DNA of 64,000 bases. Origin: Ornithinibacter sp. (lineage in GTDB: Bacteria; Actinomycetota; Actinomycetes; Actinomycetales; Dermatophilaceae). Shown here one piece after another: positions 2,364 through 43,414 of this stretch. The stretch covers positions 1 through 64,000 of the forward strand of contig JAQSWG010000005.1 of NCBI GenBank assembly GCA_029266735.1. Reading direction: 5' to 3'. The first letter of the stretch is position 1, and each line of letters begins with the position of its first letter. The notes under the pieces were generated by a model. That model did not search any database, was not told where the DNA came from, and was given only the letters and a program-made list of their open reading frames with translations. A program made the position numbers and the translations under genes.

Positions 2364-3638
2364 TCACGCGTCGGGGTCGGCAGGGACGAGGACGCCAGCA
2401 CGGCTGAGGGTCCGCCGGAGATCGGCGTCGAGGATCTCTGCGGTCCTCTCACCCCTGAGCACCGCGTCCACGGCGGCGCGGTACCCGGCGGGCACCGGAA
2501 CCCGCCCCACCCGGGTGACCAGCGTGCACTGTCCGTCGCCCGGACCGGTGACCCAGGAGGGAGCGAGGTGCCGACGGGCGCGCCACGTCGTGTGCGGGTC
2601 CTCGGCCGCCACGTGCTGGCGGAGCGTCGCGAGCGGCTCGGCACGCTGCGCTGCCCGAGCGCGGGCCGCGAGCATGCCGGCCAGCTCCTCGTCCGGGACG
2701 GCGTCGAGGGCCGTGTCGACCGCCGCCCGCACCTGTGCGCGGAAGGCTGTGGTCGTCGAGGGGTCCAGGGGGTCCACCCCCACGGGCAGCGACTCGCGGA
2801 GGGCGACGTCGTCGTCGAGCCGGTGGGCTGCAGCGGTGAGAAGGTCCTCGGCGAGGTGCCGCTGAGTCCACACGTGGACGCCGATCGTGAGGTGGATGCT
2901 CGTCCCGCCGAGCGCCGTGGCCGAGTGCAGCCAGCCGCGAGGGACGTAGAGGCAGTCGCCCGGCGCCAGGACCTCGTCGACCTCCGGCGGCTCCTTCGCC
3001 GCTGCCCGCACGGCATCCCGCCGGTCGGTCCACGGCTGGTCCCGCAGTGGCCAGCGGTGCACCGGCGGCCGCACGCGCCAGTGCTTCCGGCCGGCGACCT
3101 GGAGGACGAACACGTCGTGGACGTCGTAGTGGTCGTCGAAGCCCCGGTTCTGGGGCGGGGTGACGTAGGCGTTGACCTGGACCGGGTGGCCGAGGTCGGC
3201 GGCGATCTCCTGCGCCGCCGAGACCACCGGCTGCCAGGTCCGGTGCAGGGCCTGCAGGACGATCGTCGCGCCGTCGGAGAAGAGGCGGAGGACCCTGTCG
3301 TCACTCACCTGGTCGCCGATGCCGGCGCCCACGCCACCACCGAGGGTGTACGTCGAGGGCTCGAGCGTGCGACCCTCCTTGGCCATCCTCAGGAACGGCG
3401 TCCGCAGTGCCCTGGACGCGAGGAGCTCGTCGACGGCAGCCGGGCCGAACAGCTCACGTGTGTCGGGCCGGTCGGCGGCGCGGGTCAGGAGAGGACGGCG
3501 ACCCCAGTGGTCGGCGGCGAACCGCGCCACAGGTTCTGCGACGAGCGAGGCCAGACCGTGGCCCCTGCCCGCGGGCGACGGCGAGGAGCGCCTGCGGGAC
3601 GAGGTGGCCGCTGGCGGCGCGTGCTGCTCCTCGGTCAC
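2364..3638 (-). CDS. JmjC/cupin_4 Fe(II)- and 2-oxoglutarate-dependent oxygenase
   Basis: A 424-residue JmjC-fold protein of the cupin_4 (YcfD/ROXA-like) group, whose known members hydroxylate residues of ribosomal proteins. The iron triad is visible: His170 and Asp172 (DDHYDVHDVF) and His238 (YVPRGWLHSA). The GRKHWRV segment at 183-189 places Lys185 where the 2-oxoglutarate-binding lysine is expected. A C-terminal region of about 180 residues follows, as in YcfD-type enzymes. GTG 3638 overlaps the TGA of the upstream repeat-protein gene by four bases (GTGA), so the two are translationally coupled. The natural substrate is unknown; that small repeat protein is the obvious candidate. It ends tail-to-tail with the LacI gene. 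Confidence 0.87.
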   Translation of the reverse strand: MTEEQHAPPAATSSRRRSSPSPAGRGHGLASLVAEPVARFAADHWGRRPLLTRAADRPDTRELFGPAAVDELLASRALRTPFLRMAKEGRTLEPSTYTLGGGVGAGIGDQVSDDRVLRLFSDGATIVLQALHRTWQPVVSAAQEIAADLGHPVQVNAYVTPPQNRGFDDHYDVHDVFVLQVAGRKHWRVRPPVHRWPLRDQPWTDRRDAVRAAAKEPPEVDEVLAPGDCLYVPRGWLHSATALGGTSIHLTIGVHVWTQRHLAEDLLTAAAHRLDDDVALRESLPVGVDPLDPSTTTAFRAQVRAAVDTALDAVPDEELAGMLAARARAAQRAEPLATLRQHVAAEDPHTTWRARRHLAPSWVTGPGDGQCTLVTRVGRVPVPAGYRAAVDAVLRGERTAEILDADLRRTLSRAGVLVPADPDA

Positions 3639-3973
3639 CGGAGCGAGTCGGCCCCTCCGTCCGCGCCGCCGTCCTGGGCTCCCGGCGTGCCGTCCTCGCC
3701 GGCCCCGCTGTCGGCGAGGCCCTCGGGTCCGCCCCTCAGCCCTTCGGCGCCGCCGTCTGCTCCACCGTCGTGCTCGCCCGCAAGGCCTTCACCTGCTCCG
3801 GCGTCTGCCGGTCCCTCGGTGGCGTAACCGGCTGCGCCGCCGGCGCCACCATCGGCGCCGCCGTCGTGCTCGCCCGGCATGCCCGCGTCGCCGGCCCCGC
3901 TGTCCGCGGGGCCCTCCGCGTTACCGAGCTTGCCGTCACCGTCGGGCAACGGGTCCATCGTGCTGTCGCTCAT
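3635..3973 (-). CDS. Small acidic Gly/Ala/Asp repeat protein, possible substrate of the JmjC oxygenase
   Basis: A 112-residue protein made almost entirely of Gly, Ala, Asp and Glu. The motif DGGADGG recurs at residues 37-43, 69-75 and 101-107, exactly 32 residues apart. Each copy is preceded by a related GPADSGAG-like block, giving three diverged repeats. There is no signal peptide or membrane segment, and no cysteine. ATG 3973 is chosen because a strong ribosome site (AGGAAGG) lies 8 bases upstream; the longer frame from 4126 has no good site. It overlaps the JmjC gene by GTGA. Similar DGGADGGA-rich proteins are, as I recall, labelled 'BatC' in actinobacterial genomes, without known function. 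A repetitive oxygenase substrate or a peptide precursor are both possible. Confidence 0.75.
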   Translation of the reverse strand: MSDSTMDPLPDGDGKLGNAEGPADSGAGDAGMPGEHDGGADGGAGGAAGYATEGPADAGAGEGLAGEHDGGADGGAEGLRGGPEGLADSGAGEDGTPGAQDGGADGGADSLR

Positions 3974-4154
3974 GGTCTGCACCTTCCTCTCGGCGCCACC
4001 GGAGCGGCGGCGCGCGCCCTCATTCCAGCAGCCGGACCGACCGGGCAGGGCTTTGCCGACGTTCGACGGCTCCGTCCGTCGAACGATCGCCCACGGTCGG
4101 CGCGCGGGACTGCTCGACGTGTGCATCCTCGGAGCGCACTGTCACGATGGGCCC

Positions 4155-6026
4155 ATGGCCCTCGACGTCGAGCTCGCGGAGGTCCGGGAGTTCCTGGGAG
4201 AGCACGAGCCGTTCGACTCCCTCCCCCCGGCGGTGCTGGACCGGCTCCCGTCGGTGATGACCGTCGAGTACTTCCGACGCGGCGCCCGGCTCGTCTCCCG
4301 GGGACACGATGACCGCCGGCTGCTCGTCCTGCGCTCGGGTGCCGCCGAGGTCCACGACGCCCAGGGCGACCTCGTCGACCGCGGTGGTGCCGGATGGTGC
4401 TTCGGGCCGATGACCGTCACGCGGGGCGGACCGTCGACGTTCAACGTCACGGCGATCGAGGACTGCCTCGCCCTGATCCTCCCCGAGGCGGACTTCCGCC
4501 TCCTGTGTGCCGAGCATCCGCAGGTCGACGCGTTCTTCGACGCCCAGCGGACGAGGAGGCTGCGCGGCGCGGTGGACTCGCTCCAGCTGTCCTCGAACGG
4601 CAACCCCATCCTCAAGACTCGGGTCCGGGACCTCCTGCGCCGACGGCCAGTGGCTGTCGACCGGACCACGTCGGCGGCCGATGCGGCACGGGTCATGTCG
4701 GACAACGGTGTCTCCTCGCTCCTCGTCCTGGACGGCGAGCGGCTGGCGGGCATCCTCACGGACCGGGACCTGCGCATCCGGGTGCTCGCCGCCGGCGTCG
4801 ACCCGGGTGTGCAGGTGTCAGAGGTCATGAGCGCGGACCCGGTGACCGGTGAGGTCGACTCGCTCGCCTTCGAGGTGCTCCTGCGCATGGTGGGGCGGCA
4901 CGTCCACCACCTGCCGATCGTCGACGGACGCCAGCGCCCAGTTGGCCTCGTGACGACGACCGACCTCCTCCGGGTCGAGCAGGCGAACCCCGTCTATCTC
5001 GCCGGTGACATCACCAAGCAGGTCGATGCCCTCGGCGTGGCACGGGTGTCGAGTCGACTGCCCCGGGTCGTCCAGGCGCTCGTCGAGCAGGATGCGTCCG
5101 CGGACGACATCGGCCGGGTCGTCACGGCCGTCGGGGATGCCGTGGAGCGCCGGCTCCTCACGCTCGCCGAGGCCGACCTCGGGCCTGCCCCCGTGCCCTA
5201 CTGCTGGGTCACCCTCGGCTCGCGAGCCCGGCACGAGCAGGCGCTCGCGGCCGACCAGGACACCGCGGTCATCATCGACGACCGCGTCCGCCCCGACCAG
5301 CTGCCCTGGTTCGAGGCGTTGGCCCGACGGGTGACCGACGACCTCGTCACCTGCGGCTACCCGCGGTGCCCGGGGGACGTCATGGCGACGAACCCCCGGT
5401 GGCGTCAGCCACTTCGGCAGTGGCAGCGACAGTTCTCGCGCTGGCTGTTCGAACCCGTCCCGGAGGCGATCCTGGGGGCCAGCATCTTCTTCGACATGCG
5501 CCCGATCCACGGTGAGGTGTCGCTCCACGACGACCTCCAGCAGCACGTGCTGACGGCGTCGCCGGGGTCACTCCGGTTCCTGGCCCAGCTGGCGAAGCAC
5601 GCGACGAGCAACGAGCCCCCGTTGGGCTTCTTCCGAGGGCTGGTTCTCGAGAAGACCGGTGACCACAAGGACACGCTCGACATCAAACGCGGCGGCGTCG
5701 GTGCCGTCGTCGAGCTGGCTCGGGTCCATGCCCTCTCGATCGGCAGCTCGACGGTGCACACCCAGACCCGGATCGAGGCCGTTCGAGAAGCCGGGGTCCT
5801 CACCCGGGAGACGGCGCGCGACCTGCGGGACGCGTTCGAGTTCATCTCCTACGTGCGGCTGCGGCACCAGGCGGGCCAGGTGCGGCGCGGGGAACCGAGG
5901 GACAACTTCGTCTCCCCGGAGGAGCTCTCCGGGTTCGACAAGCGGCACCTGCGTGATGCCTTCGCCATCGTGCGGGGTGCTCAAGCGGTGCTGAGGCACC
6001 GTTTCCCGATGCAGTTCATGTCGTGA
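4155..6026 (+). CDS. cNMP-binding/CBS-pair/DUF294 nucleotidyltransferase-like protein
   Basis: A 623-residue cytoplasmic protein with an ordered multidomain layout. A cyclic-nucleotide-binding-like domain covers about residues 1-135. Two CBS domains follow at about 155-280 and should bind an adenine nucleotide. A DUF294 nucleotidyltransferase-like domain then carries a GSRARHEQALAADQD motif, and a C-terminal DUF294_C helical domain ends the protein. The GS-R...DQD pattern resembles the active site of GlnE/GlnD-type nucleotidyltransferases. ATG 4155 fits the domain start, although the frame stays open upstream to 3879. The next gene overlaps it by GTGA. The family is thought to be a signalling or nucleotidylyl-transfer module; its target is unknown. 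Confidence 0.88.
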   Translation: MALDVELAEVREFLGEHEPFDSLPPAVLDRLPSVMTVEYFRRGARLVSRGHDDRRLLVLRSGAAEVHDAQGDLVDRGGAGWCFGPMTVTRGGPSTFNVTAIEDCLALILPEADFRLLCAEHPQVDAFFDAQRTRRLRGAVDSLQLSSNGNPILKTRVRDLLRRRPVAVDRTTSAADAARVMSDNGVSSLLVLDGERLAGILTDRDLRIRVLAAGVDPGVQVSEVMSADPVTGEVDSLAFEVLLRMVGRHVHHLPIVDGRQRPVGLVTTTDLLRVEQANPVYLAGDITKQVDALGVARVSSRLPRVVQALVEQDASADDIGRVVTAVGDAVERRLLTLAEADLGPAPVPYCWVTLGSRARHEQALAADQDTAVIIDDRVRPDQLPWFEALARRVTDDLVTCGYPRCPGDVMATNPRWRQPLRQWQRQFSRWLFEPVPEAILGASIFFDMRPIHGEVSLHDDLQQHVLTASPGSLRFLAQLAKHATSNEPPLGFFRGLVLEKTGDHKDTLDIKRGGVGAVVELARVHALSIGSSTVHTQTRIEAVREAGVLTRETARDLRDAFEFISYVRLRHQAGQVRRGEPRDNFVSPEELSGFDKRHLRDAFAIVRGAQAVLRHRFPMQFMS

Positions 6027-42523: not shown

Positions 42524-43414
42524 GTGGCCCTGACAGACCTCTCGCGCTGCTCAGCCGCGTCCCGCTACCGGCGGGATCCGCAGGCCGGCACCGCACCGGT
42601 CGCCTCCCGATGGCTCCTCATCGAGCACCCGGGTCCCTGGTCCAAGCAGCCCCTCGACACGCCGCCGCTCCTCGGTGCGGTCGGCGCGGAGGTCGAGAAG
42701 GTCTGTGGCTCCTTCGGTGGCCGCGTGCTCCTCGTCCGCCGGCCCGGCCGCCGGGAGCCCGGGGACGACCTCCTCTCCTGGTATGCCGTCGACACGGTCC
42801 GTCGCACCTGGGTGCGCGGCACGTGGAGGACCTCGGAGAACCTCCTCCACGCGGCTCATGCGCTCGGCGTCCCGCTCAGCGACAGCGACGAGGACGCCGA
42901 GCCCATGGTGCTCGTGTGCACGCACGGCACCCGCGACGCGTGCTGCGCGGTGCGCGGTCGGCCCATCGTCGCGACGCTGGCGCGGGCCCTGCCCGAGGAG
43001 ACGTGGGAGTGCACCCACCTGGGCGGCCACCGGTTCGCGGGAACGCTCCTCTCCCTTCCGGACGGCACCTGTCTCGGGCGGCTGGACCCCGACACCGTCG
43101 TGGGGGCGGTGAGCTCCCACCGTGAGGGTCGGGTCGACGCGAAGTACCTCCGGGGGGTCACCCGCTGGGAGCCGGCGGTCCAGGCCGCGGTCGCTGCCGT
43201 GCTCGCCGCCCACGGCCCGGGCGACCTCGACAACCTCGTCCCCGGCCGGATCGACGCAGAGGGCGACTCCACCCGGGTCGACGTCCTGGGCCGGGAGCCG
43301 ATGCCCGAGCGAGTGACGGTCGACGTCAGAGCGGAGGCCCTGCCCGACGCCCCCCTGAGCTGCGGCGACAAGGCCAAGCAGCACACGGCATACCGGGCGG
43401 TGCTGCGCCCCTGA
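42524..43414 (+). CDS. Sucrase/ferredoxin-like family protein
   Basis: A 296-residue protein of the Suc_Fer-like family, whose domain is thioredoxin-like and related to [2Fe-2S] ferredoxins. The conserved blocks are visible: an early RCS motif, WLLIEHPGPWS, VCTHGTRDACCAVRGRP with Cys132, Cys140 and Cys141, and THLGGHRFAGTLL. These Cys and His residues are candidates for cluster binding. The biochemical role is unknown, despite the family name derived from a yeast sucrase suppressor. GTG 42524 is supported by TAGCAT six bases upstream. It ends 3 bases from the stop of the convergent phosphoesterase gene. Confidence 0.85.
   Translation: MALTDLSRCSAASRYRRDPQAGTAPVASRWLLIEHPGPWSKQPLDTPPLLGAVGAEVEKVCGSFGGRVLLVRRPGRREPGDDLLSWYAVDTVRRTWVRGTWRTSENLLHAAHALGVPLSDSDEDAEPMVLVCTHGTRDACCAVRGRPIVATLARALPEETWECTHLGGHRFAGTLLSLPDGTCLGRLDPDTVVGAVSSHREGRVDAKYLRGVTRWEPAVQAAVAAVLAAHGPGDLDNLVPGRIDAEGDSTRVDVLGREPMPERVTVDVRAEALPDAPLSCGDKAKQHTAYRAVLRP

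Follow-up and report, generated by a model that had tools for sequence, protein, structure and literature searches.

We analysed a window of 64,000 nucleotides from Ornithinibacter sp. (contig JAQSWG010000005.1, positions 1 to 64,000) and studied a pair of genes on its minus strand, the first encoding a small repetitive peptide and the second a JmjC-type oxygenase. A first-pass annotation made from the letters alone had described the two open reading frames (ORFs), a GTGA at which they overlap and a JmjC enzyme of the cupin_4 type. We recovered both ORFs and the overlap at the same positions, and the enzyme matched the Pfam family PF08007 (JmjC_2) with an E-value of 3.7e-28. The features of the pair are:

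3635..3973, minus strand: gene of a small Asp/Gly/Ala-rich peptide, putative precursor or substrate, 112 amino acids, ATG start
2364..3638, minus strand: gene of a predicted JmjC_2 (cupin_4) Fe(II)/2-oxoglutarate oxygenase, 424 amino acids, GTG start, NO66/MINA architecture (PF08007 match and AlphaFold2 (AF2) model)
3635..3638, minus strand: GTGA, the stop of the peptide gene overlapping the start of the oxygenase gene
3842..3868, minus strand: repeat unit 1, HDGGADGGA, residues 36-44 of the peptide
3746..3772, minus strand: repeat unit 2, HDGGADGGA, residues 68-76
3650..3676, minus strand: repeat unit 3, QDGGADGGA, residues 100-108
3123..3131, minus strand: HxD motif (H170, D172) of the oxygenase, predicted iron ligands, invariant in sets of 25 and 67 sequences
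2925..2927, minus strand: H238 of the oxygenase, predicted distal iron ligand, invariant in the same two sets
2382..2585, minus strand: C-terminal winged-helix domain of the oxygenase, residues ~352-419, in the short form of the window's lineage (AF2 secondary structure)

The arrangement of the two frames at the GTGA makes translational coupling of peptide and oxygenase likely. Residues 37, 69 and 101 of the peptide each open a DGGADGG motif, which thus recurs with a period of 32 residues. The three nine-codon units show 5, 5 and 6 mutual differences, all of them confined to third codon positions and silent except for one, which turns a His into Gln. The nearest relative is the locus L079 of an uncultured Tetrasphaera, the oxygenase of which is 94% identical to that of the window. 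Between the two peptide genes we counted 11 synonymous and only 1 non-synonymous codon changes. The restriction of unit variation to third positions together with this ratio indicates selection on the protein and not a recent repeat of the DNA. Searches of the peptides against Pfam and NCBIfam gave no family, only rows far below the curated cut-offs.

With the window oxygenase as query we obtained matches (E<=1e-20) in 45 of the 198 genomes of the window's order. These amount to 48 places, 43 of which were examined (the other five being G185, G032, G163, G033:C72 and G107:C27). In 39 of the 43 regions the oxygenase is immediately preceded by an ORF for an acidic peptide; the four exceptions are L020, which is at a contig end, and L068-L070, which carry distant oxygenases of 30-35% identity. 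Among at least 553 named relatives we kept the 80 best. Upstream DNA is available for all but L083 and L123, and 75 of these 78 loci have an upstream Asp/Gly/Ala repeat peptide, which in some cases is cut by a contig end or masked. The 80 relatives span Phycicoccus, Knoellia, Terrabacter, Nocardioides, Streptomyces, Blastococcus, Arthrobacter, Leifsonia and others, and share at least 8 contigs with the loci of the genome survey, so the counts are not additive. The 4-nt overlap was the commonest arrangement of peptide and oxygenase (29 of 70 named relatives), although the script began to look for a start codon 14 nt ahead of the stop and accepted the first one, which favours overlaps. Across the phylum, 58 of 396 genomes matched an alignment of the oxygenase. 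From their matches we took the 30 best loci, five of which had also come up in the order set, and found an Asp-rich peptide upstream in all 25 further ones. The first-pass annotation had proposed examining whether the pair co-occurs across actinobacteria, and it does so frequently.

The repeats in turn were sought away from the oxygenase. Clustered matches (at least two) to [HQ]DGGADxxA occurred in 19 of the 198 order genomes, all of which have the oxygenase, and were located at the oxygenase gene; no clustered [HQ]DGGAD array was found in the 153 oxygenase-negative genomes of the order. For the window and the regions of 40 relatives (747,916 bases, six frames) we identified 26 ORFs with at least four D[GS][GS][AT] motifs within 100 amino acids. 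All of them lie directly upstream of the oxygenase and no such dense array was found elsewhere in those bases; the genomes are not independent, and the Fisher values of this control are descriptive only. These results bear on the possibility that the peptide is a chance low-complexity frame in GC-rich DNA next to a JmjC gene. The low complexity, the GC-rich genome and the missing Pfam and NCBIfam matches would suit such an explanation, but the peptide is conserved across families, its repeats vary in third positions only and dense arrays are absent from the rest of the DNA examined, and we regard its probability as close to negligible.

We then considered the enzyme. The AF2 model of the window oxygenase has a mean predicted local distance difference test score (pLDDT) of 91.8. 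The best match among solved structures was nearly full-length, to NO66 (Z 26.6, root-mean-square deviation 4.8, 379 residues), followed by MINA (Z 25.4) and YcfD (Z 19.1). The model has a 2-oxoglutarate oxygenase fold in an NO66-type architecture, composed of the JmjC domain, a helical part and a C-terminal winged helix. From the family we predict H170, D172 and H238 to be the iron ligands, and membership in it predicts 2-oxoglutarate-dependent hydroxylation. NO66, MINA53 and YcfD share this architecture over the full length, but their known substrates are ribosomal proteins, whereas the window oxygenase is preceded by the gene of an acidic repeat peptide. It is conceivable that the oxygenase is of the ribosomal type as well and that the peptide, rather than being a substrate, acts as its regulator or chaperone or as a buffer for its metal. 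In line with this, no second PF08007 match was found in the genome of the window (94% complete). A ribosomal role is harder to reconcile with the presence of the oxygenase in just 45 of 198 order genomes, and the number and type of repeats, which vary between lineages, fit a substrate modified at many sites better than a regulator. We therefore consider this explanation very improbable. In a search of plasmids with the oxygenase we obtained a single cyanobacterial match (33% identity, with 59% of the query covered), at 3941-5161 of a Pseudanabaena galeata plasmid (L190), with the gene of a LanM lanthipeptide synthetase nearby.

In relatives a third gene usually follows the pair. It encodes a sucrase/ferredoxin-like protein (PF06999) and was found directly after the oxygenase in 33 of 41 order regions, in 56 of 80 named loci (2 of the other 24 end at the oxygenase) and in 24 of 30 phylum loci, plus one weak case. 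Within the order, 42 of the 45 oxygenase-positive genomes carry PF06999, compared to 12 of the 153 oxygenase-negative ones. The window has a copy as well:

42524..43414, plus strand: gene of a sucrase/ferredoxin-like protein (PF06999, by Pfam), 296 amino acids, predicted [2Fe-2S] thioredoxin-like ferredoxin

This copy scored 80.5 bits against a cut-off of 34.9, is 49% identical over 287 amino acids to the operon copy of L031 and lies ~39 kb from the oxygenase, whereas the two genes are usually adjacent in relatives. The usual place of PF06999 in the window is occupied by a convergent ORF behind the oxygenase (1162-2286), presumably a LacI-type regulator. The PF06999 domain and a CX8C...HX3H motif are common to the window copy and the Apd1/Aim32 [2Fe-2S] proteins, CX8C and HX3H being the motif given for Aim32 in the part of the source used here (PMC8482512). 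Most operon copies differ from Apd1/Aim32 in adjoining the oxygenase and in having HX3D instead of HX3H (81 of 87 sequences), where the Asp may serve as a ligand of the [2Fe-2S] cluster; the displaced window copy has HX3H.

The cores of the relatives' peptides are of several types. The first-pass annotation had stressed a strict 32-residue period, which holds for the window peptide but is not conserved in relatives, where 23 to 24 residues are commoner: between [HQ]DGGAD motifs we counted a spacing of 23 in 53 cases, 24 in 23 and 32 in 6, with duplicate loci included in this count and in that of the units. Core type A consists of EGPADGGAxxxPGxHDGGADGGA and variants with a spacing of mostly 23-24 residues, type B of GDADSGDSDATQVDPAGSDPAG and type C of STDADAD; others are DADGTDADGTD, DADASDADAAD and ADGTDQGVPGGTYGPRDAG. 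The type differs between lineages, the repeats may comprise as few as two units or form long runs of DGGA, and many cores are largely Asp, Gly, Ala, Ser and Thr. The peptides of L040 and L053 consist almost wholly of tandem DGGA units with a near-perfect four-residue period. For L042 a VVLTRRRR stretch breaks the repeat run, as a frameshift or assembly error would. The L182 peptide repeats ADGTDQGVxGGTxGPRDAG behind an LGDDDIS leader, and no PF06999 match was found within the 4.2 kb of that locus. Upstream of the more distant JmjC homologue of L069 (G107:C4) there is a 37-residue acidic ORF ending in GCVGQFNAA, which may encode another kind of precursor peptide.

To compare the composition of the cores we used the last 60 residues of 132 peptides. 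Asp makes up at least 12% in all of them, and Gly and Ala are also always present (minima 2% and 3%). Of the 132 peptides 43 have no His and 90 no Asn; Tyr occurs in only 5 and Cys in none. The selection of ORFs preferred acidic frames, which inflates the Asp values; the lack of His, Asn and Cys is outside the selection criteria. This count and the leader count given below were made without L083, L123, L020, L175, L184 and L185, and without L084, L109, L122, L128, L142 and L155, in which the oxygenase ORF is cut or oversized. Furthermore L137, L152 and L068-L070 were omitted from both counts and L134 from the leader count.

As Asp is found in every core and His, Asn and Cys are often or always missing, Asp is the best guess for the modified residue. 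The peptide could also be a substrate modified at His, Asn, Pro or a Gly/Ala position. NO66 and MINA hydroxylate His and YcfD hydroxylates Arg, so the closest solved relatives of the oxygenase are His hydroxylases, and the residue ahead of DGGAD is His in 193 of 285 units; Gly and Ala are moreover as universal in the peptides as Asp. However, the position before DGGAD is also taken by Ala (41), Gln (31) and Gly (11), and 43 of the 132 peptides have no His within their last 60 residues. We consider a residue other than Asp unlikely.

One criterion for ribosomally synthesized and post-translationally modified peptides (RiPPs) is that the small gene of the precursor adjoins that of a modifying enzyme and the two are conserved together, and this is the arrangement found here. 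Given the conserved pair, the usual third gene, the selection on the peptide and the family and architecture of the enzyme, we infer a RiPP-like system in which the oxygenase would hydroxylate a dedicated repeat peptide, most likely at Asp, and we hold this to be probable from the sequences compared. The earlier proposal of a substrate-enzyme pair is strongly supported by genomics as far as the conserved gene pair is concerned, and partly supported as an interpretation. Nothing we observed favours the structural protein that had been offered next to a modified peptide, and the picture of two genes stood for the pair itself but overlooked the third gene and the leader and winged-helix domain of relatives.

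The proposed mechanism is as follows. The peptide would be made together with the oxygenase encoded behind it, as its dedicated substrate. With Fe(II), 2-oxoglutarate and O2 the oxygenase would then oxidize side chains in each repeat, the most likely reaction being beta-hydroxylation of the repeat Asp residues. The sucrase/ferredoxin-like protein might keep the iron of the enzyme reduced, or handle iron or another metal on the product. The chemistry is plausible since the JmjC-type enzymes PbsQ and BpmG are described, in the part of the source used, as hydroxylating one residue of a RiPP precursor (PMC12257519).

The third gene also raises the possibility of a reaction beyond hydroxylation, such as desaturation, cross-linking, macrocyclisation or oxidative cleavage, for which the [2Fe-2S] partner would give the electrons. 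A dedicated redox partner is unusual for a plain 2-oxoglutarate hydroxylase, and here its gene usually adjoins that of the oxygenase. For bacterial JmjC contexts, the portion of PMC12710340 considered cites a 2025 paper titled on RiPP macrocyclisation by a 2-oxoglutarate dioxygenase. Against such chemistry, many cores are mainly Asp, Gly, Ala, Ser and Thr, and within the last 60 residues of the 132 peptides Cys never occurs and Tyr is found in just 5; we think it quite improbable. Hydroxyaspartate is an iron ligand of some siderophores. Extending beta-hydroxylation to all repeats, one may picture widespread actinobacterial poly-beta-hydroxyaspartyl peptides, in which hydroxyaspartate arrays formed from the Asp/Gly/Ala or Asp/Ala/Thr repeats would act as a ribosomal metal-binding polymer and the [2Fe-2S] partner would load or reductively release the metal. 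We put this forward tentatively and think it rather doubtful.

For the recognition of the peptide we compared 131 pairs. An LSDDDIxT-like motif (LxDDDIxT) opens the peptide in 54 of them, and in precisely these 54 pairs the C-terminal helix of the enzyme is longer and its end is of the RRLLRE type; both features are absent from the remaining 77 pairs. The association therefore holds in 131 of 131 pairs. A tree of the catalytic domain shows a single change of each trait, and both changes fall on one branch. We folded the C-terminal domain of a leader-bearing relative alone (pLDDT 90.6). Foldseek returned the NO66/MINA winged helix as best match, then TruD, PqqD and the RiPP recognition element (RRE) of PbtF. 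By VIA-align the domain scored Z 7.8 with PqqD, 7.2 with TbiB1 and 7.0 with PbtF; its second helix has only 3 residues. RRE-like is a fair description of the long domain, which may function as an RRE. In the leader-bearing branch the winged-helix domain might hold the LxDDDIxT leader while the repeats pass the active site. As leader and long domain are both missing in the branch of the window, we propose that its enzyme would bind the repeats directly.

Several observations weigh against the proposed RiPP-like system. The window peptide and 76 others lack the leader motif, and the window enzyme has the short winged helix. A single shared change on the tree corresponds to one event and is no statistical proof of co-evolution. 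The leader and domain patterns were widened after a stricter count gave 13 mismatches, which by eye were misses of the pattern, and the leader label of L067 was assigned by hand from inspection of the locus. Proteins which are not RREs score alike by VIA-align (Rv2067c 7.8, GdmN 7.3), and Z-scores of 7-8 are in the range in which only a common arrangement may be shared. The upstream peptides of L045 and L050, which are among the 39 order regions, and of the named relatives L141 and L155 are acidic and non-repetitive; L137 has none, and no peptide of this kind precedes the distant oxygenases of L068-L070. Counting any [HQ]DGGAD match, we found 42 genomes, 23 of them with single or scattered matches only. 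Some of these lack the oxygenase (for example G091, G027 and G129 with single matches), though the G129 match is at a contig end and may be a cut array. Finally, no protease or exporter of the usual RiPP route recurs beside the pair, lineage-local neighbours being left without annotation in this survey.

Among known systems the closest in outline are PbsQ, BpmG and BipG of the biphenomycin-type RiPPs, in which a JmjC oxygenase adds a hydroxyl to a clustered ribosomal precursor (PMC12257519, PMC12707348). As far as the sections of these papers used here go, the target is one ornithine in a short aromatic motif, hydroxylated after steps by a multinuclear non-heme iron-dependent oxidative enzyme (MNIO) and an arginase, and the cluster includes a protease and a transporter. 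In the present family, on the other hand, the oxygenase is the only modifying enzyme found and stands beside a repeat peptide. Bregman et al. 2025 (PMC12710340) make a short remark on PF08007 JmjC proteins with RRE-like domains, concerning fish and algal proteins, the closest bacterial homologues of which (~30% identity) are placed in RiPP-like contexts; the remark, in the part of the paper used, mentions neither a precursor family nor repeats, a leader or a third gene. In the literature searched, which covered few subscription papers, we found neither the peptide family nor the unit of three genes described, and novelty is provisional. If the proposed system is real, it would constitute a minimal and common RiPP-like family of just two or three genes that combines one oxygenase with acidic, repetitive cores and a linked redox protein. 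Such a family would also tie the ribosomal-oxygenase fold of NO66, MINA and YcfD to leader-guided peptide modification, which bears on the origins of these enzymes.

We also examined the surroundings of the pair. Upstream of the peptide gene we detected no common RNA structure (mean z -0.29 across 77 loci, 5 below -2; control: mean z 0.09 across 74 loci, none below -2), and no shared promoter or regulator box, conservation by eye being lineage-local only. For the neighbour survey we set aside large opposite-strand clusters, which we took to be antisense readings of these same genes. No further protein family has a fixed place beside the pair across lineages, as judged with lineage-local neighbours left unannotated. 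One cluster comprises 11 order loci, at scattered places near the pair, and the other neighbours are lineage-local.
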